Shown here piece by piece: positions 31,821 through 38,117 of a DNA stretch of 64,000 nt (its first letter is position 1; each line of letters opens with the position of its first letter). The stretch comes from Planotetraspora sp. A-T 1434 (lineage in GTDB: Bacteria; Actinomycetota; Actinomycetes; Streptosporangiales; Streptosporangiaceae): contig NZ_JAOEGB010000011.1 of the NCBI RefSeq assembly GCF_025420585.1, positions 1 to 64,000 on the forward strand, written 5' to 3'. A program made the position numbers and the translations under genes. The notes under the pieces were generated by a model that saw only the letters and a list, made by a program, of their open reading frames with translations, ran no database searches and had not been told where the DNA came from.

Positions 31821-33002
31821 CTACAGCGGCTGGGCACGCAGGAACCTCCCGAAGTGGGGGACGGTGAACCCGATGACTCCACGCTCCGCGCTGTAGATCA
31901 GGCCTTTCTTGATGAGGCTGTCCCGCGCCGGGGACAGGCTGGACGGCTTGCGGCCGAGCACGTCGGCGACCTCGGCGGTCGGCACCGGGTCGTCGCCGAG
32001 CTGGGCCATCGCGTGCATGTAGTCACGCTCGGCCGGGGTGGCTCGCTCGTATCGGCTGCCGAAGAACCCGACGGCCAACTCCTCCTCGGCCTCGGGCGCC
32101 GACACCTTGATGTCGTCCGCCGTGATGGGGCTCCGGGGAGCGAGATCCCAGGCGACCTTGCCGTACGCCTGGACGAAGTAGGGGTAACCGTCGGCCGCCT
32201 CGTAGAGCGCGTCGAGCGCCTCGGGTGTGAACTCGACGTCCTCCCGCTCGGCCGGGGCGATGAGAGCCAGGTCGGCGGCGTCCCGGTCGAGCCGGTCGAT
32301 CCGGGCGTAGCGGAACAGCCTCTCGGAATAGCTCTTGCTCGCCGAAAGGACACTCGGCAGATGGGGCAGGCCGGCGCCGACCACGATCAGCGGGCCGCCG
32401 GACTGCGAGAGCTCATGGCACGCGGCGCACAGGGCCGAGATGTCCGGTGCCTGCACGTCCTGCATCTCGTCGATGAACAGGGCGATGCCCACGCCGAGGT
32501 CGGTCGCGACACCCGCGGCATCGACGAACAGCTCGGTCAGGTCGATCTCCAGATCGCCCGAGTCGGCCCGGCCGCGCGACGCCGGGACGTCGATGCCGGG
32601 CGACCAGTGGGACGTGCCCTTCGCCGCGGCCGGATCGCGCATCGCGAACGCCTTCAGCACGCCGAGGAACTCCTCGATCCGCTCGGGAGCCCGGTGGCGG
32701 GGGGCGAGCTCCCTTATCGCCATGTGCAGCGAGGCGGCGACCGGCCTTCGGATCGACTGGTCGGGCCGGGCCTCGATCTTCCCGGTGCCCCACAGCCTCT
32801 GCATGGCCATCGACTTGAAGGTGTTGAGCAGGACGGTCTTGCCGACGCCGCGAAGGCCGGTGAGAACCATGCTGCGCTCGGGACGGCCGCGGGCCACCCG
32901 CTCCAGCACGATCTCGAACTGCTGCAACTCGCGATCGCGCCCGGCGAGCTCCGGGGGTCGCTGACCCGCACCGGGGGCGTAGGGATTGCGCACGGGGTCC
33001 AC
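31821..33002 (-). CDS. Orc1/Cdc6-like AAA ATPase with winged-helix C-terminus
   Basis: A 393-aa protein, counted from GTG 33002 (VDPVRNPYAPGAGQRPPELA), the usual start area of these actinobacterial ATPases. Walker A is GLRGVGKTVLLN, Walker B is IALFIDEMQD, and sensor-1 is PLIVVGAGLPHLP. The C-terminal 90 residues form a winged helix (PVPTAEVADVLGRKPSSLSP). The family is widespread in actinomycetes and annotated only as ATP-binding; an MSP/STAND-like or archaeal Orc-like role is suggested. An in-frame ATG at 33323 would add a repeat-containing N-terminus (GPFS)n, which I consider less likely to be translated. Confidence 0.8.
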   Translation of the reverse strand: MDPVRNPYAPGAGQRPPELAGRDRELQQFEIVLERVARGRPERSMVLTGLRGVGKTVLLNTFKSMAMQRLWGTGKIEARPDQSIRRPVAASLHMAIRELAPRHRAPERIEEFLGVLKAFAMRDPAAAKGTSHWSPGIDVPASRGRADSGDLEIDLTELFVDAAGVATDLGVGIALFIDEMQDVQAPDISALCAACHELSQSGGPLIVVGAGLPHLPSVLSASKSYSERLFRYARIDRLDRDAADLALIAPAEREDVEFTPEALDALYEAADGYPYFVQAYGKVAWDLAPRSPITADDIKVSAPEAEEELAVGFFGSRYERATPAERDYMHAMAQLGDDPVPTAEVADVLGRKPSSLSPARDSLIKKGLIYSAERGVIGFTVPHFGRFLRAQPL

Positions 33003-33168
33003 GCTCTCGGACTTTATGACGGGATATAGCGGCCGTCGTAGATTTCCGTAGAAAGCGCTACGGCGTGTCGCTCGCGATCGAAGCGGGACACACCAGGCGG
33101 GGACCGGCGCGTCGGCCGGAGGCCGGGGAGACGGCACCGGCGCGGTCTCACCGGAGGGCCCACCTGAG

Positions 33169-33252
33169 GGCTCACTGAAGGGGCCACTGAAGGGGCCACT
33201 GAAGGGGCCACTGAAGGGGCCACTGAAGGGGCCACTGAAGGGGCCACTGAAG
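33169..33252. repeat. 12-bp tandem repeat, six perfect units plus one imperfect
   Basis: Unit GGGCCACTGAAG at 33181-33252 (six perfect copies), preceded by a one-mismatch copy at 33169-33180. It is open in all frames because 12 is a multiple of three. It lies 170 bp upstream of the ATPase start, in a promoter-proximal position. Confidence 0.9.
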
Positions 33253-33467
33253 GGCTCACCGGAGGGGGCGATCCCGGCGACCGGCGGGCCGCTGAGGGAC
33301 ACTTCAGCCGCGCGCACTGCCATGGCCCACCCCTCACCTGCCGAGACGGGGACCGAACCCCTGTTCGATCCGATGGCCAAGACTGTAGCGCGGCATCGAA
33401 CACGTGCGCGAGCTTTTCGATGAAAAGCTTCAGCCACGCGTCGCGACAGACCCCGCAACCCCGAGCG

Positions 33468-33645
33468 TGATCATGCACAGGTTCACGGCCAAGCTCTTCA
33501 CCTGGCCCGACGCCCAGTGTGATCATGCAATTGCCAGATCACCGAGCATGTACGCGCAGCTAAGGGCGACGTACGGGAATCCATGCATGATCACGAGCGG
33601 GGTGGTGGGAGGCGGTGGCCCTACCCGGGAATCCGTGCATGATCA
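33468..33645. repeat. Four copies of the TGATCATGCA word
   Basis: Copies at 33468-33477 and 33520-33529 (forward) and at 33584-33593 and 33636-33645 (reverse). The last two are embedded in a longer direct repeat of about 28 bp beginning CGGGAATCC. The stretch 33253-33658 carries no other recognisable gene. Confidence 0.8.
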
Positions 33646-33658
33646 CGAGCGGGGGTGG

Positions 33659-34111
33659 TTACCGAGGGGTGTATGCCAGGACCAGGGCCACGATGGCCGC
33701 GATGGCGATCAGGGCGAGATAGGCCAGCACCAGGCGGGTGTCCCGGAGCACGCACTTGCTCCTGGTCAGACCCGCCCGGCGAGCCCGCCAGTAACCCACC
33801 AGGCCAAGGACCGCGAATCCCAGCACCGCCCACGGGCCGAGCAGCCAGGCGAGCAACGCGACCGTGGCGTACACGCACAATTTCAGCGGATCGTACGGCT
33901 GAGCGGCCCCACGCTCGGCGGTGCGGCGCTGATCACCGGCGCTGCCCTGCTCCGCGGCACCGGCGTCCTCACCGGCACTGCCCTGCTCCGCCCCACCGGC
34001 GTCCTCACCGGCACTGCCCTGCTCGGCGGTGCCGGCCTCTTCAGCGGCACGGCGCCGCTGGGCTGCGACAGCCTCCTCGTAGGCGACGCCTCTCGGCGGC
34101 TCCGGCGTCAT
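33659..34111 (-). CDS. Small membrane protein with AEQGSAGEDAG repeats, last gene of the radical SAM operon
   Basis: A 150-aa protein whose ATG overlaps the radical SAM stop (ATGA, 34108-34111). The cytoplasmic N-terminus has three 11-residue repeats (AEQGSAGEDAG type). At least three TM helices follow: LLAWLLGPWAVLGFAVLGLV and LVLAYLALIAIAAIVALVLA among them. A short Cys-containing loop (SKCVLRD) lies between. I recognise no family. Co-translation with the enzyme suggests a membrane anchor or partner for it. Confidence 0.7.
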   Translation of the reverse strand: MTPEPPRGVAYEEAVAAQRRRAAEEAGTAEQGSAGEDAGGAEQGSAGEDAGAAEQGSAGDQRRTAERGAAQPYDPLKLCVYATVALLAWLLGPWAVLGFAVLGLVGYWRARRAGLTRSKCVLRDTRLVLAYLALIAIAAIVALVLAYTPR

Positions 34112-35673
34112 GTGATCTCTACGAGTGGCAGCCGTACCCCGGGGTCGACGGAGGCGACGGCCGACAGGCGCTGCCGGGCGAGGGCGGGCCAGGCCTGCAC
34201 GGCGCAGAAGGGCGCGCATTGATCCTGGTCGGAACGGGTGCCGACGTGGACGCAGCACTGGATCAGCCGCTCTTCCAGCATGGTCGACATGTCCATGAAC
34301 GGCTTGACCGTGATCCGGACCACCCGCTCCCCGAGCAGCCGGCGAAGCCGCCGCTTCCGGCCGGGCAGGGCCGAGGACGCGAGCGTCAGCAGGGTCGACA
34401 GGCCGAGGTCGCAGTTCTCGCAGATGTCCCGCCAGAGCTTGCCGATCTCCGGGTGAGACAGCGATGACTGTTCGGACAGGAGCCCGAGGAGCGATTCCTG
34501 TACGGCGAGGCGCAACTCGCGGGGGATCTCCGTGTCCGCGATCCGGTTGGCGACCAAGCCCAGGTTCTCCTTCAGACGATCGTGCCCGATCAGGGCCGTG
34601 AGCGACCGCCACTGGTCGGCGTCGTCCCGGATCATGTAGCCGACCGAGCAGCAGTGGGGATGCGAGCACGGCAGCGCGGTCAGGTCACGCCAGGTGACGA
34701 GCCCGTCCGTCTGGGGGCCCAGCCGCTTGAGGACGCCCGTGTGCGTCAGCCGGTCCATCGGGTCGATCAGCCCAGAGCGTCCCGAGCCGAACTGCGGCTG
34801 GATCGAGACGCCGCCGACGTAGGGCGTGCCCAGCGCGAGCCGTACGACATCGCCGATCTCGCCGTCGTTGGCACCGAGGGCGCAGGTCATCACCAGCGTC
34901 GTGAAGATCTCCCGCCCGGACAGCCTCTGGATCGCCTGGGCCTTGAACCGCCGCAGGTCACCGCCCCGGTGGTGGCGGGACGCCTCCGCCGACACCCCGT
35001 CGTACTGAAGATAGACCTCGACCCGCTCCCGATGTTCGGTCAGCAGGTCGAGCAGCGCGTCGTCCCTGGCCACGAGGATGCCGTTGGTGTTGATCAGGAT
35101 GCGGGTGACCGGCCGGGCCGCGAGCTCGGCCAGCAGCTCGGGCAGGTCGGGGTGCAGCGTGGGCTCGCCGCCGCTCAGCATGAGCACGTCGAGGCGTCCG
35201 TTCTCGCGAGCGAGCCGCTGGTCCACGCTTGCCAGGATCTCCGCCACCGGCACGACGCCCCGCAGGTCCGGTGAGGACTCGGTGAAGCAGGTCGGGCAGC
35301 GCAGGTTGCAGGTCTCCGCGACGTCCTGGAGCAGGATGCACGTGTGCTGGGTCTGCATCTCGGGCAGGCCACGCAGATACGCCATGGGCACCGGGTCGAA
35401 GTTTCCGGCGACATCCGGAATGTGGGCCTTGGTGGGCGCGGTCCACTCCTCCAAATAGGCGAGGATGTCGGGGTCCTCGTCATAGAGGGTCCGGACCATG
35501 CCATGCGTACGGCAGGCGCGCTCCAGGTAAACCCGTTCGTTCCGGGCGGCGAGCCACCCGGACAGGCGCGGGACGTCCTCAAGCGGACGGTCGGGCTGCT
35601 CGTCGTGGCAGCGCGGGCAGAACGCGTTGACATAGCGGAGGATGCGATCCCCACGCAGCGGCATACCGGTCAC
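34108..35673 (-). CDS. Cysteine-rich radical SAM enzyme, tetraether synthase (Tes/MJ0619)-like
   Basis: A 521-aa protein starting at GTG 35673 (GTGA overlap with the preceding gene). An N-terminal zinc/iron-ribbon-like region carries C19/C22 (FCPRC) and C54/H57 (ACRTHG). The radical SAM motif is CNLRCPTC (C122, C126, C129), preceded by MQTQHTCILLQDVAE. GGEP lies at 168-171, NTNG at about 195, then YLQYDGVS. The C-terminal third has extra Cys: LPCSHPHCC (336-342), ICENC (418-421), CCVHVG (473-476) and QCAPFC (485-490). This order of an N-terminal ribbon, the SAM core and auxiliary-cluster Cys matches the Tes/MJ0619 group that joins lipid tails in archaea. The bacterial substrate is unknown. 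Confidence 0.75.
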   Translation of the reverse strand: MTGMPLRGDRILRYVNAFCPRCHDEQPDRPLEDVPRLSGWLAARNERVYLERACRTHGMVRTLYDEDPDILAYLEEWTAPTKAHIPDVAGNFDPVPMAYLRGLPEMQTQHTCILLQDVAETCNLRCPTCFTESSPDLRGVVPVAEILASVDQRLARENGRLDVLMLSGGEPTLHPDLPELLAELAARPVTRILINTNGILVARDDALLDLLTEHRERVEVYLQYDGVSAEASRHHRGGDLRRFKAQAIQRLSGREIFTTLVMTCALGANDGEIGDVVRLALGTPYVGGVSIQPQFGSGRSGLIDPMDRLTHTGVLKRLGPQTDGLVTWRDLTALPCSHPHCCSVGYMIRDDADQWRSLTALIGHDRLKENLGLVANRIADTEIPRELRLAVQESLLGLLSEQSSLSHPEIGKLWRDICENCDLGLSTLLTLASSALPGRKRRLRRLLGERVVRITVKPFMDMSTMLEERLIQCCVHVGTRSDQDQCAPFCAVQAWPALARQRLSAVASVDPGVRLPLVEIT

Positions 35674-36191
35674 AGTGCACCATCTGTATAGATCGCCGGG
35701 TTGATGCCCGTGCAGAAACCGACGGAGACGATGGACATGAGGGCCCATCCGATCATCAGACCCAGGCCGAGGCCCCTGCTCCACGGCTTGCGGAGCATGA
35801 TCAGCACAGCCCCTCCGCCAAGCGCGGCCGCCGCGAGGATCACCGCCCCGACTCCCATGATGATGTTCTTGCCGCTTCCGACGCTGTCGGCCGCGCTCAG
35901 CGTCGCGATGAACGCCAGCAGGTTCACGACCACGAAGATGGCGATGCCCGCGAACGTCATTCCGACGACGATCCCGGTGGTGTTCCGCGGCGGGGCCGGA
36001 TGTGGGGTCGGCGGCGGCCCCCATCCCTGCGGCCCACCAGCCCCGAACTGCCCCGGAGGCCCCGGCGGGGGCGGCGGGGTCGGCGGAGACTGGGGCGGCC
36101 GACCGTTCGCCGGGAGCTCGGGGGGCTCGCTCTGGGATCCGTTCTGGGGCCCGTTCTGGGGCCCGTTGGGCGGCTCGGGGGGTGTGCTCAT
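35670..36191 (-). CDS. Pro-rich membrane protein in the Lgt/radical SAM operon
   Basis: A 173-aa protein. Its ATG overlaps the Lgt-like stop (ATGA, 36188-36191) and its stop overlaps the radical SAM start. The first 70 residues are Pro/Gly/Asn-rich with repeated NGPQ and PPP runs. Three TM helices follow (GIVVGMTFAGIAIFVVVNLL, IIMGVGAVILAAAALGGGAV, GLMIGWALMSIVSVGF) with a CTGINPAIY end. No enzyme motif is visible. It is probably a membrane partner or anchor of the co-translated enzymes. Confidence 0.75.
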   Translation of the reverse strand: MSTPPEPPNGPQNGPQNGSQSEPPELPANGRPPQSPPTPPPPPGPPGQFGAGGPQGWGPPPTPHPAPPRNTTGIVVGMTFAGIAIFVVVNLLAFIATLSAADSVGSGKNIIMGVGAVILAAAALGGGAVLIMLRKPWSRGLGLGLMIGWALMSIVSVGFCTGINPAIYTDGAL

Positions 36192-37081
36192 GAGATCTCC
36201 TGGCGCGGAGCCGCCGGCGTCCAAGCCGATGGGGCTGCGCTCTCTTCCTCGTGATGGATCCGGCTTTCCGAGCTTCCCGGGCTTTCCGGGCTTTCCGGGG
36301 ATCTGCCCAGCAACCGGTCGTAGAACCCGTGGCGGTAGCCGTACCGCAGCCTGACGGCGACGAGCACGAGACCGGGGATGATGAACCACTGCGGCCGGGT
36401 GAGGTCGAGCCAGACCGTCTCGTTGGCCCGGGTGAACTCGACGGCGAACCGGAACACCGCATAGGCCGCCACGTAAAGCGTGAACAGCTCACCGGGCCGG
36501 CTGACCCGGCCTCGTGCCCACAGCAGCGCCCCGAAGGCGGCGAGCTGGAAGGCGATCTCGTAGAGGAACGAGGGATGCATGGCCTGACCGGTCAGGCATC
36601 CGGGACACTCCGGCACGGACGCGGGCGCGTGGACCCCCCAGGGCAGACTGGTAGGGCGGCCCGGAGCCTCGGTCAGGAAGCACCCGATCCTGCCGACCGC
36701 CATGCCGAGGGCCACGGCAGGGGCGAACAGGTCGCCGGTCTTCTCCCGATATCCGATGAGCCGCTTGGCGATCAGCACACCCGCGTACGCGCCCGTCAGA
36801 CCCCCGAGAATGCTCCGGGAGCCGAACATCCACGCCTCCAGGAGGCTCGGGTTCAACGAGGGATCGAGGTGCTCGGCCCAGCCGGACAGGCGCATCCCCA
36901 TGGCGCCCCCCACCAGCGCGCCGGTCACCGCGACGAGCGACTCCTCCCGCAGCGCGCCTCTGCGCCGGGCCTCCAGGACGAAGACCACGCTCGCGAGGAT
37001 CACCCCGAGACCCACGAAGAAGCCGTGGGCCGGCACCGCCAGCCCACCGATGCGCAGCTCGGGAATCACGATCGACACCAT
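36188..37081 (-). CDS. Lgt-family (prolipoprotein diacylglyceryl transferase-like) paralogue
   Basis: A 297-aa polytopic protein with seven or so TM helices. The Lgt signature region reads GRIGCFLTEAPGRPTSLPWG, followed by AMHPSFLYE and FRFAVEFTRAN. Compared with E. coli Lgt, the Arg of GRxGN and the Arg of the EFFR segment are kept. The His of the FHGG motif appears as Leu (SILGGLTG) and the Asn of GRLGN is Cys. That makes it unlikely to be the housekeeping Lgt. It heads a four-gene operon with 4-nt overlaps that ends with the radical SAM enzyme. A glycerolipid head-group or diacylglyceryl transfer to another acceptor is a reasonable guess. Confidence 0.8.
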   Translation of the reverse strand: MVSIVIPELRIGGLAVPAHGFFVGLGVILASVVFVLEARRRGALREESLVAVTGALVGGAMGMRLSGWAEHLDPSLNPSLLEAWMFGSRSILGGLTGAYAGVLIAKRLIGYREKTGDLFAPAVALGMAVGRIGCFLTEAPGRPTSLPWGVHAPASVPECPGCLTGQAMHPSFLYEIAFQLAAFGALLWARGRVSRPGELFTLYVAAYAVFRFAVEFTRANETVWLDLTRPQWFIIPGLVLVAVRLRYGYRHGFYDRLLGRSPESPESPGSSESRIHHEEESAAPSAWTPAAPRQEIS

Positions 37082-37113
37082 AGCCGCGCCCGCCGACGTT
37101 TCCGATCCCCGTC

Positions 37114-37147
37114 CTGTACGGCTTTCGCTCCTGTACGGCTTTCGCTC
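37114..37147. repeat. 17-bp tandem direct repeat upstream of the Lgt-like gene
   Basis: Two adjacent perfect copies of CTGTACGGCTTTCGCTC, 33 bp before the Lgt-like start codon. They may sit in its 5' leader or promoter. Confidence 0.75.
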
Positions 37148-37298
37148 CCCGAATTCGGCTGATCCCGATGCGCTCAAGCCACAGTGGGCCGCCGGCGGCC
37201 GTCAGGACGAAGCCACCACGGTCGATCCCAGCAGGGCCGTCACCACGGCGGTGACGGAAAGCACCGTCACATTTGCGCGGCGCGGGTACTCTGCGCGT

Positions 37299-38117
37299 AT
37301 GGCTTCCAGATGGAACCCCAGGTCAGCGGTGGTGTTGGTGGCTCTGCTGAGCCTGACGGCCTGCGGGGGGACGAAAGATGCTATATCGCCCCAATCGGCG
37401 CCGCCCGCCACTCCGGCCGTGTTTCCGGTGGAAGCGTCAGCGGCGTCCCCGGGGGCGTCGGTGTCGTCGCCGGATTGGTTTGTCTCACCGGCCGCCACAC
37501 CGCCCGTGGCGAGCACTCCCGCTCCGCCCGCGCCAACTCCCTCGGGGCCGCCGAAGTTCACCGCCGCGATCGGCAGGCTCTCGCGAAGCGAGGTGCCGCA
37601 CTCGTGGCGTCCGGGCTGTCCAGTTGGCCTGAGCGGGCTGCGGAAGATCACGATGACCTACTGGGGTTTCGACGACAAGGCGCACACCGGCGAGTTGGTG
37701 GTGAACGCGGCCGTCGCCCGGGATGTCGTCTCCGTCTTCGGGAAGCTCTACGACTTCCGCTTCCCCATTCGCCGCATGGAACCGGTCGATGTCTACAAGG
37801 GGAGCGACAACGACTCGATCGACGCGGACAACACGTCGGCTTTCAACTGCCGGAACGCCACCGGGTCGAGCAGTTGGTCGGAGCACGCGTACGGCAGGGC
37901 CGTGGACATCAATCCGCGGGAGAATCCGTACGTCTACGCGGACGGGTCCAATGCCCACAGGAACGCCGACGCCTTCGTCGAGCGCCCGCTCAAGAAGCCG
38001 GGCGTGATCAACGAGGGCGACCGGGTGGTGCGGGCCTTCGAGGACATCGGCTGGGGCTGGGGCGGCCTGTGGTCGGGCACGAAGGACTACCAGCACTTCT
38101 CGGCATCGGGACGCTGA
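37299..38117 (+). CDS. M15-family D-Ala-D-Ala carboxypeptidase-like lipoprotein
   Basis: A 272-aa protein. The signal peptide ends in a lipobox (LLSLTACGG), so it is a predicted lipoprotein. A Pro/Ser/Ala linker (residues about 25-95) precedes an M15_4-type domain: the substrate region FRFPIRRMEPVDVYKGSDND, zinc ligands in SWSEHAYGRAVDINPRENP and the last His in KDYQHFSASG. Predicted to act on peptidoglycan stem peptides outside the membrane. It is divergent from the Lgt-like operon across about 217 bp, and a genuine lipoprotein would need the cell's true Lgt. Confidence 0.88.
   Translation: MASRWNPRSAVVLVALLSLTACGGTKDAISPQSAPPATPAVFPVEASAASPGASVSSPDWFVSPAATPPVASTPAPPAPTPSGPPKFTAAIGRLSRSEVPHSWRPGCPVGLSGLRKITMTYWGFDDKAHTGELVVNAAVARDVVSVFGKLYDFRFPIRRMEPVDVYKGSDNDSIDADNTSAFNCRNATGSSSWSEHAYGRAVDINPRENPYVYADGSNAHRNADAFVERPLKKPGVINEGDRVVRAFEDIGWGWGGLWSGTKDYQHFSASGR

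Follow-up and report, generated by a model that had tools for sequence, protein, structure and literature searches.

A conserved actinobacterial operon pairs a divergent Lgt paralogue with a radical SAM protein of predicted tetraether synthase fold and points to a membrane modification

The stretch of DNA analyzed here (the window) comprises 64,000 nucleotides of contig NZ_JAOEGB010000011.1 from Planotetraspora sp. A-T 1434, whose genome amounts to 7.78 Mb in 136 contigs. Four minus-strand open reading frames in the window (33659-37081) encode, in this order, a divergent paralogue of Lgt, here called Lgt2, a Pro-rich membrane protein, a radical S-adenosylmethionine (SAM) protein, here called rSAM, and a small membrane protein. 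Our main finding is a conserved partnership between Lgt2, an Lgt paralogue whose active site has been rebuilt, and rSAM, an enzyme with the predicted fold of the archaeal tetraether synthase (Tes), which couples lipid tails. Orthologues of rSAM, i.e., strong matches only, were found in 51 of 200 genomes from the same order and in 37 of 148 genomes of what we take to be Mycobacterium (the genus of genome G202, in the broad GTDB sense). The operon is present in many soil actinomycetes and in mycobacteria, and it points to an undescribed membrane modification. The reading we favor, with a probability of about 0.45, is that the operon modifies a membrane glycerolipid, acting on a lipid derived from phosphatidylglycerol (PG), and that Lgt2 serves an acceptor that is not a lipoprotein.

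Gene order and linkage of the operon

The operon consists of lgt2 (36188-37081; 297 aa), the Pro-rich protein gene (35670-36191; 173 aa), the rSAM gene (34108-35673; GTG start, 521 aa plus stop), and the small-protein gene (33659-34111; 150 aa). All three junctions are 4-nt stop/start overlaps, namely ATGA at 36188-36191, GTGA at 35670-35673, and ATGA at 34108-34111. An earlier reading of this DNA, made from the sequence alone (the sequence-only reading), had described the four frames, their coordinates, and the three overlaps exactly so, and the four genes are probably translated as a unit. In relatives, with starts chosen by a simple rule and with three repeated pairs among the loci, a spacing of -4 was found at 30 of 58 junctions from Lgt2 to the Pro-rich protein, at 48 of 59 from the Pro-rich protein to rSAM, and at 29 of 39 from Lgt2 directly to rSAM. 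Between rSAM and the small protein it was found in just 7 of 69 cases; the start rule performs poorly there, because the N-terminal part of the small protein varies. Among the 28 junctions from the Pro-rich protein to Lgt2, -4 was not one of the commonest spacings. A promoter search at the operon found none, and a single terminator-like site does not exceed what chance would give.

The surroundings of the rSAM gene were read at 98 loci outside the window (80 named and 18 further), which together with the window make 99 loci and 96 distinct rSAM sequences. Lgt2 is present at 97 of the 99 (96 of 98 without the window), and both misses are at contig ends; within the window's own family it is present at 20 of 20 loci (the window, 10 repeats of named loci, and 9 additional ones). 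The Pro-rich protein was detected at 87 loci and the small protein at 69. Three loci without a detected Pro-rich protein were examined, and each has a diverged Pro-rich or hydrophobic protein between lgt2 and rSAM. Outside the window, the order is Lgt2-Pro-rich-rSAM at 29 loci, Lgt2-Pro-rich-rSAM-small at 28, Pro-rich-Lgt2-rSAM-small at 28, and Lgt2-rSAM-small at 10, with three single cases at contig ends. That is, the Pro-rich gene may precede or follow lgt2, and the group stays together. At L046, L162, L169, and other Nonomuraea loci, there are two Pro-rich matches ahead of lgt2, resembling a tandem duplication.

Within Mycobacterium, Lgt2 is present in 40 of the 148 genomes, including all 37 with rSAM; in each of these 37 it lies on the same contig, at most 0.9 kb from rSAM (coordinates compared by eye). 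The three genomes with Lgt2 and no rSAM are G917, which is 70% complete, G990, whose copy is fragmentary and contains a stop, and G1034, where the gene is at a contig end. Pairwise distances between Lgt2 proteins also follow those between rSAM proteins (r 0.73, n=95 loci, loci L129-L131 being excluded; none of 2000 permutations was as high), a correlation for which shared species history alone would also suffice.

Beyond the order and the genus, rSAM orthologues were found in 24 of 394 genomes of the class and in 10 of 396 of the phylum; the order, class, phylum, and genus sets overlap. A separate genome scan found 388 relatives and retained 80; these 80 are Actinomycetota, namely Microbispora, Microtetraspora, Sphaerimonospora, Planomonospora, Planobispora, Nonomuraea, Thermoactinospora, Nocardia, Antrihabitans, and mycobacteria. 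Among these 80, the closest rSAM matches are from, e.g., Microtetraspora and Microbispora (89-93% identity), which we take to be Streptosporangiaceae. Two copies of the operon reside on large plasmids, M. avium pS2b (L224) and M. branderi pJCM12687 (L225), near IS110 or IS200/IS605-TnpB elements; the operon may therefore be able to move between hosts.

These data bear on whether the operon reflects nothing but the inherited synteny of unrelated genes. In the window's own family, the neighboring ATPase, DoxX-like, and M15-type genes are often syntenic as well, as such inheritance would have it. However, none of the three was detected at the out-of-family loci read, where the operon core persists, and the plasmid copies and the full co-occurrence within one genus also speak against it; we consider mere synteny to be scarcely credible. 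Among the flanking gene clusters of 37 loci, none occurs at more than 9, and the widest are confined to the window's own family or to mycobacteria. We conclude that the linkage of Lgt2 and rSAM is more than local synteny. The sequence-only reading had looked to conservation of the four-gene order across actinomycetes, taking its loss in relatives as the contrary outcome; the linkage is kept phylum-wide, and that outcome did not occur.

A few rSAM genes depart from the common form. Those of G067 (L049) and G975 (G975:C1:4266432-4267953) are read as two overlapping pieces, suggesting decay or sequencing error. That of G701 (L129) is a single open frame with an in-frame insertion of about 70 residues, and that of G667 is spread over two contig ends.

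Lgt2 and its active site

Lgt2 matches the Lgt family PF01790 with 115.2 bits (cut-off 24.9), but falls below the cut-off of the Lgt equivalog model TIGR00544 (87.8 against 118.9 bits). The Lgt structure PDB 5azb is its match by sequence and by fold, and was the sole hit under E 0.001 in a fold search with a model of pLDDT 73.4. When 19 operon Lgts were compared with 29 other Lgts (a set of 31 rows, minus the operon Lgts L254 and L256), the 19 grouped separately, in a single clade with 100/100 support. A second PF01790 match was found elsewhere in 19 of 19 operon genomes tested, and three of three operon-free genomes have one match only. Lgt2 thus accompanies another Lgt in the genome.

PMC13251419 lists Y26, H103, R143, N146, G154, and R239 as residues that E. 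coli Lgt requires. Three of these are replaced in Lgt2. The position of Tyr26 is His19 (minus-strand codon 37025-37027; His in 94 of 97 rows, 3 gaps), that of His103 is Leu92 (36806-36808; Leu in 92 rows, Ile in 2, gaps in 3), and that of Asn146 is Cys134 (36680-36682; Cys in 94 of 97 rows, 3 gaps). By contrast, the positions of R143, G154, and R239 are kept in 94 of 97 rows, with 3 gaps; E151, E243, and R246 are kept as well. In the 29 non-operon Lgts, Tyr occupies position 26 in 22 cases and His in 4, while at position 146 there is Asn in 24, Asp in 4, and Cys in 1. H103 is replaced in other actinobacterial Lgts too, mostly by Trp (21 of 31 rows). The residues retained include those that hold the phosphate of PG (R143 and R239), and for this reason PG is the likely lipid substrate of Lgt2; the rebuilt acceptor side, in turn, implies that Lgt2 probably serves something other than an ordinary prolipoprotein. 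The statement in the sequence-only reading that Lgt acts on PG can therefore be carried over to Lgt2 in part: the one point in its support is the retention of the donor-site residues, and against it stands the replacement of three residues required in E. coli. A further candidate feature of the family, a CxxC motif in the head of Lgt2 (C159 and C162, 32 of 32 rows), was discarded, since distant members lack it.

Two of these changes have been noted in a mycobacterium. The second Lgt of M. smegmatis, MSMEG_5408, carries Y26H and N146C and is presumed to have low Lgt activity, as PMC13251419 states, citing Tschumi 2012. Judging from these two changes, MSMEG_5408 probably belongs to the Lgt2 clade; of the two, His at position 26 is shared with the 4 non-operon Lgts mentioned above. 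The operon may thus supply a function for the mycobacterial 'second Lgt'.

The radical SAM protein and its relatives

The rSAM protein of the window matches PF04055 (69.5 bits) and PF23545 (36.5 bits). Its top curated family is TrsS (NF045646), with 190.4 bits against a cut-off of 490, followed by Tes (NF045702), with 144.9 bits against a cut-off of 450; both scores are far below what membership takes. Across 15 members, TrsS matches all 15, with a best E of 2.6e-61, compared with 5.4e-46 for Tes, to which the remaining 14 members match at E <= 0.001. The best solved relative, however, is the Tes protein MJ0619 (7TOL, 7TOM), with E 8.9e-29 from the single sequence and 1.6e-40 by profile for 7TOL. 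An AlphaFold2 model, made from 33 close sequences with a mean pLDDT of 58.9, gave the same answer in Foldseek, in which 7tom (E 2.2e-19) and 7tol lead and the next other protein is at 1.3e-6. In the VIA overlay, 383 residues align with Z 22.7 and an rmsd of 4.2 Å, the next other protein reaching Z 14.2. The model thus predicts that rSAM has the MJ0619 fold, also termed the GDGT-MAS (GDGT-macrocyclic archaeol synthase) fold, over most of its length. A peptide maturase, viperin, or cofactor-biosynthesis identity was considered and rejected, as such models among those listed stay at or below 44 bits, whereas TrsS reaches 190 and Tes 145; in Foldseek, their structures rank far below 7TOL.

By family scores and phylogeny, rSAM is not a member of Tes, but a clade of its own. 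In a tree from which three short or fragmentary rows were excluded, a long branch leads to the operon proteins, which are united with 100/100 support; long branches make the placement of MJ0619 and of a Bacteroidota row unsure. The sequence-only reading had called the protein Tes/MJ0619-like and had proposed profile searches and a structural overlay to check this. The likeness stands insofar as the protein groups with the MJ0619/Tes type, the MJ0619 fold tops the structure search with a low-confidence model, and no clustering with peptide-maturase or cofactor families occurred. It does not extend to Tes membership, nor to all of the metal sites.

These sites can be compared with those of MJ0619, for which PMC9433317 describes C9/C12/C33/H36, C73/C77/C80 plus a His, the CX3CX2C motif, and a C-terminal cluster with a labile ligand, Met439. 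The comparison was made with 17 operon sequences aligned to MJ0619 and with a wider set of 99 rows. The rubredoxin-like site of rSAM (C19, C22, C54, and H57; 35503-35619) is kept in 98 of 99 rows at each position, with 1 gap; C54 and H57 align with MJ0619 C33 and H36 in 17 of 17, and C19 and C22, which lie outside the aligned part, are taken as the counterparts of C9 and C12. The CX3CX2C motif (C122, C126, and C129; 35287-35310) is kept in 17 of 17. At the other end of the protein, C473, C474, and C490 (34204-34257), together with C341 (34651-34653), align with MJ0619 C455, C456, C470, and C338 in all 17 sequences, and would be the ligands of the C-terminal cluster. Gln268 and Arg275 of MJ0619, the latter in the SAM loop together with the former, are likewise kept in 17 of 17. 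In contrast, the ligands of the N-terminal 4Fe-4S cluster, i.e., C73, C77, C80, and a histidine that is probably His83, are present in none of the 17. We predict that rSAM contains two 4Fe-4S clusters and one Fe, where MJ0619 has three and one. The labile Met439 is replaced by Lys457 (codon 34303-34305; Lys in 17 of 17, and in 98 of 99 rows with 1 gap), and Tyr459 by Val in 16 of 17 and Ala in 1. In the wider set, 97 or 98 of 99 rows retain the rubredoxin-like site, the CX3CX2C motif, the C-terminal cysteines, and Lys457, the rest being gaps.

How far do these differences bear on catalysis? According to PMC9433317, Met439 and Tyr459 are fully conserved in 1000 archaeal homologues, yet the M439A, Y459F, and Y459L variants of MJ0619 stay active, so the changes at these positions do not in themselves preclude MJ0619 chemistry. 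The same paper calls the roles of the other clusters unclear. It is thus possible that rSAM couples lipid tails, as the sequence-only reading had suggested. In its full form, this alternative holds that rSAM is a working tetraether-synthase-like enzyme and that these actinomycetes synthesize glycerolipids that span the membrane or are macrocyclic, which would fit with the retained fold and C-terminal cysteines and with the active variants. The absence of the entire N-terminal cluster site from all 17 sequences and the long branch apart from MJ0619 nonetheless make it rather improbable, and the titles and abstracts of the open-licence papers listed in searches report no such lipids (tetraethers, diabolic acid) for these genera.

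The proximity to TrsS raises a different alternative, namely that the product of rSAM is a small molecule containing sulfur, selenium, or a metalloid, to which Lgt2 attaches a diacylglyceryl group or in whose pathway it is an accessory. TrsS is associated with a neighboring DVU_1556-type methyltransferase. Such a gene lies beside rSAM-like genes of a sister type, i.e., actinobacterial Tes-like proteins that are 26-36% identical to the operon rSAM, at 19 of 23 loci; one of these methyltransferases scores 134.7 bits against a DVU_1556 family cut-off of 155, and also resembles arsenite methyltransferases. Together with the rank of TrsS as the closest curated family, matching 15 of 15 members, these neighbors favor the small-molecule alternative. 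But the TrsS cut-off is far off, and within the flanks covered none of the 99 operon loci yielded the methyltransferase; we thus regard the alternative as doubtful.

The sister type itself differs from the operon type in its partners. All 23 of its rows (one of them Bacteroidota) have the N-terminal cluster ligands, and an operon-type Lgt was not detected at the 22 actinobacterial sister-type loci read, some of which are on short contigs. We conclude that the sister type belongs to a distinct system, in which nothing points to lipids. Bacterial 'Tes homologues' have been discussed as possible makers of membrane-spanning lipids in PMC8941075 and PMC11868695. Those of Actinomycetota divide into at least two systems, one paired with a methyltransferase and the other with Lgt2, which calls for caution in counts of membrane-spanning-lipid producers. 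At some sister-type loci (in the range L036-L045 and L132-L143), thioredoxin-like, CcdA-like, and mercuric-reductase-like genes, so named from their sequence, are nearby.

Proposed function, membrane proteins, and surroundings

The two small membrane proteins carry conserved cysteines. In the Pro-rich protein, a conserved C-terminal hydrophobic motif includes Cys160 (85 of 87 rows; one gap, one Val). The sequence-only reading had given this protein three membrane spans; its hydropathy profile has four peaks, of which the last two overlap. The small protein, with two hydropathy peaks, has invariant cysteines at 79 and 120 and the motif CxLxD(T/V)R(L/V)VxxY, with C79, C120, L122, D124, R126, V128, and Y131 found in 69 of 69 rows. 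It had been described as a repeat-containing membrane protein, and a tandem repeat with a 36-nt unit is indeed present (33933-34050), but it is confined to the variable N-terminal part, where the aligned relatives differ. The two proteins may anchor rSAM or carry a thiol.

These cysteines are also candidate substrates. Radical SAM proteins beside small open reading frames are often peptide maturases, and the operon could accordingly modify a protein or peptide, rSAM altering a peptide or cysteine, such as those of the two small membrane proteins, and Lgt2 lipidating it, in a second kind of lipoprotein anchoring. The invariance of C79 and C120 and the conservation of C160 fit this possibility. 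So does the native chemistry of Lgt, in which a cysteine thiol is the acceptor (PMC13251419). However, the fold search places MJ0619 far above SkfB and SuiB, the peptide-maturase models among the 25 NCBIfam models shown do not exceed the 44 bits given above, and neither a lipobox nor a signal peptide is evident in the sequence of the Pro-rich or the small protein. On balance, we find a peptide or protein target unlikely.

We favor instead the modification of a membrane glycerolipid. In PMC9433317, density in the MJ0619 crystal is interpreted as two bacterial phosphatidic acid molecules; the enzyme makes a C-S bond between a lipid tail and a sulfur of the C-terminal cluster, and a sulfur-bearing lipid builds up when SAM is limiting. 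In MJ0619 the fold encloses two lipid tails, and the C-terminal cluster takes the tail radical; rSAM, with the same predicted fold, likely acts on the lipid of Lgt2. We envisage rSAM on the inner side of the membrane, where the two small membrane proteins may hold it and where it would take an acyl tail of a PG-type lipid into an MJ0619-like pocket. A 5'-deoxyadenosyl radical would abstract a hydrogen, the resulting carbon radical would be held on the C-terminal 4Fe-4S cluster, and a new C-C or C-S bond would be formed. Lgt2, with its PG-holding arginines kept and its acceptor and catalytic side rebuilt (His19, Leu92, and Cys134), would move the diacylglyceryl unit from PG onto an acceptor that is not an ordinary lipoprotein. 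In this scheme the gene set, its linkage, the folds, and the residue changes are established by the analysis, and we infer the shared substrate pool, PG as the donor, the tail chemistry, the order of the steps, and the product.

A more specific variant of this scheme, which we consider very unlikely, would yield a sulfur-bridged (thioether), membrane-spanning lipid. Because the labile Met is an invariant Lys, rSAM may stop at sulfur insertion and give a thiol at the tail end; biotin and lipoyl synthases offer a comparison for Lys457, in that they have non-cysteine cluster ligands. The invariant Cys/His pair of Lgt2, in the places of Asn146 and Tyr26, would then join a diacylglyceryl unit to this thiol. 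Such a step would resemble the native reaction of Lgt, a thiol attack on the glycerol of PG, and each of the membrane parts has a conserved cysteine.

Several points weigh against the glycerolipid proposal as a whole. The model of rSAM is of low confidence (mean pLDDT 58.9), the N-terminal 4Fe-4S ligands are lost (0 of 17), and by score the protein is nearer to TrsS than to Tes. Moreover, since the sister-type proteins pair with a methyltransferase, an MJ0619-type fold alone does not imply a lipid; a lipid role is a good inference from the Lgt2 partner, and not from the family name of rSAM. Lgt2, in turn, could have lost catalysis. The small protein was undetected at 30 of the 99 loci, of which 24 are in mycobacteria, and the co-occurrence of Lgt2 and rSAM in Mycobacterium (Fisher p 9e-32) is uncorrected for relatedness. 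Finally, among the open-licence papers listed in searches, no title or abstract describes an Lgt2-rSAM gene pair, or such a lipid in these genera.

Three types of flanking gene cross families, namely an AMP-dependent synthetase type (7 of 37 loci), a MarR-like type (5 of 37), and a glycosyltransferase type (3 of 37). They were not counted in the system, because they lie at varying distance and look, as read from their sequences, like large superfamilies. Divergent from the operon in the window is an M15-type peptidase-like gene, named from its sequence (36702-38117, plus strand); it adjoins the operon at many loci of the window's own family, and, as noted above, was not detected at the out-of-family loci read. 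Directly downstream of the operon, the element CCGCTCGTGATCATGCA is present in two exact copies and one near copy (33461-33477, 33584-33600, and 33636-33652), with 0.03 expected in the window. Beyond these, an ATPase-like open reading frame (31821-33458) contains a 12-nt tandem repeat at 33155-33254 (7.2 copies, 98% matches); in the protein, this corresponds to a repeat of the FSGP type, close to where the frame starts.

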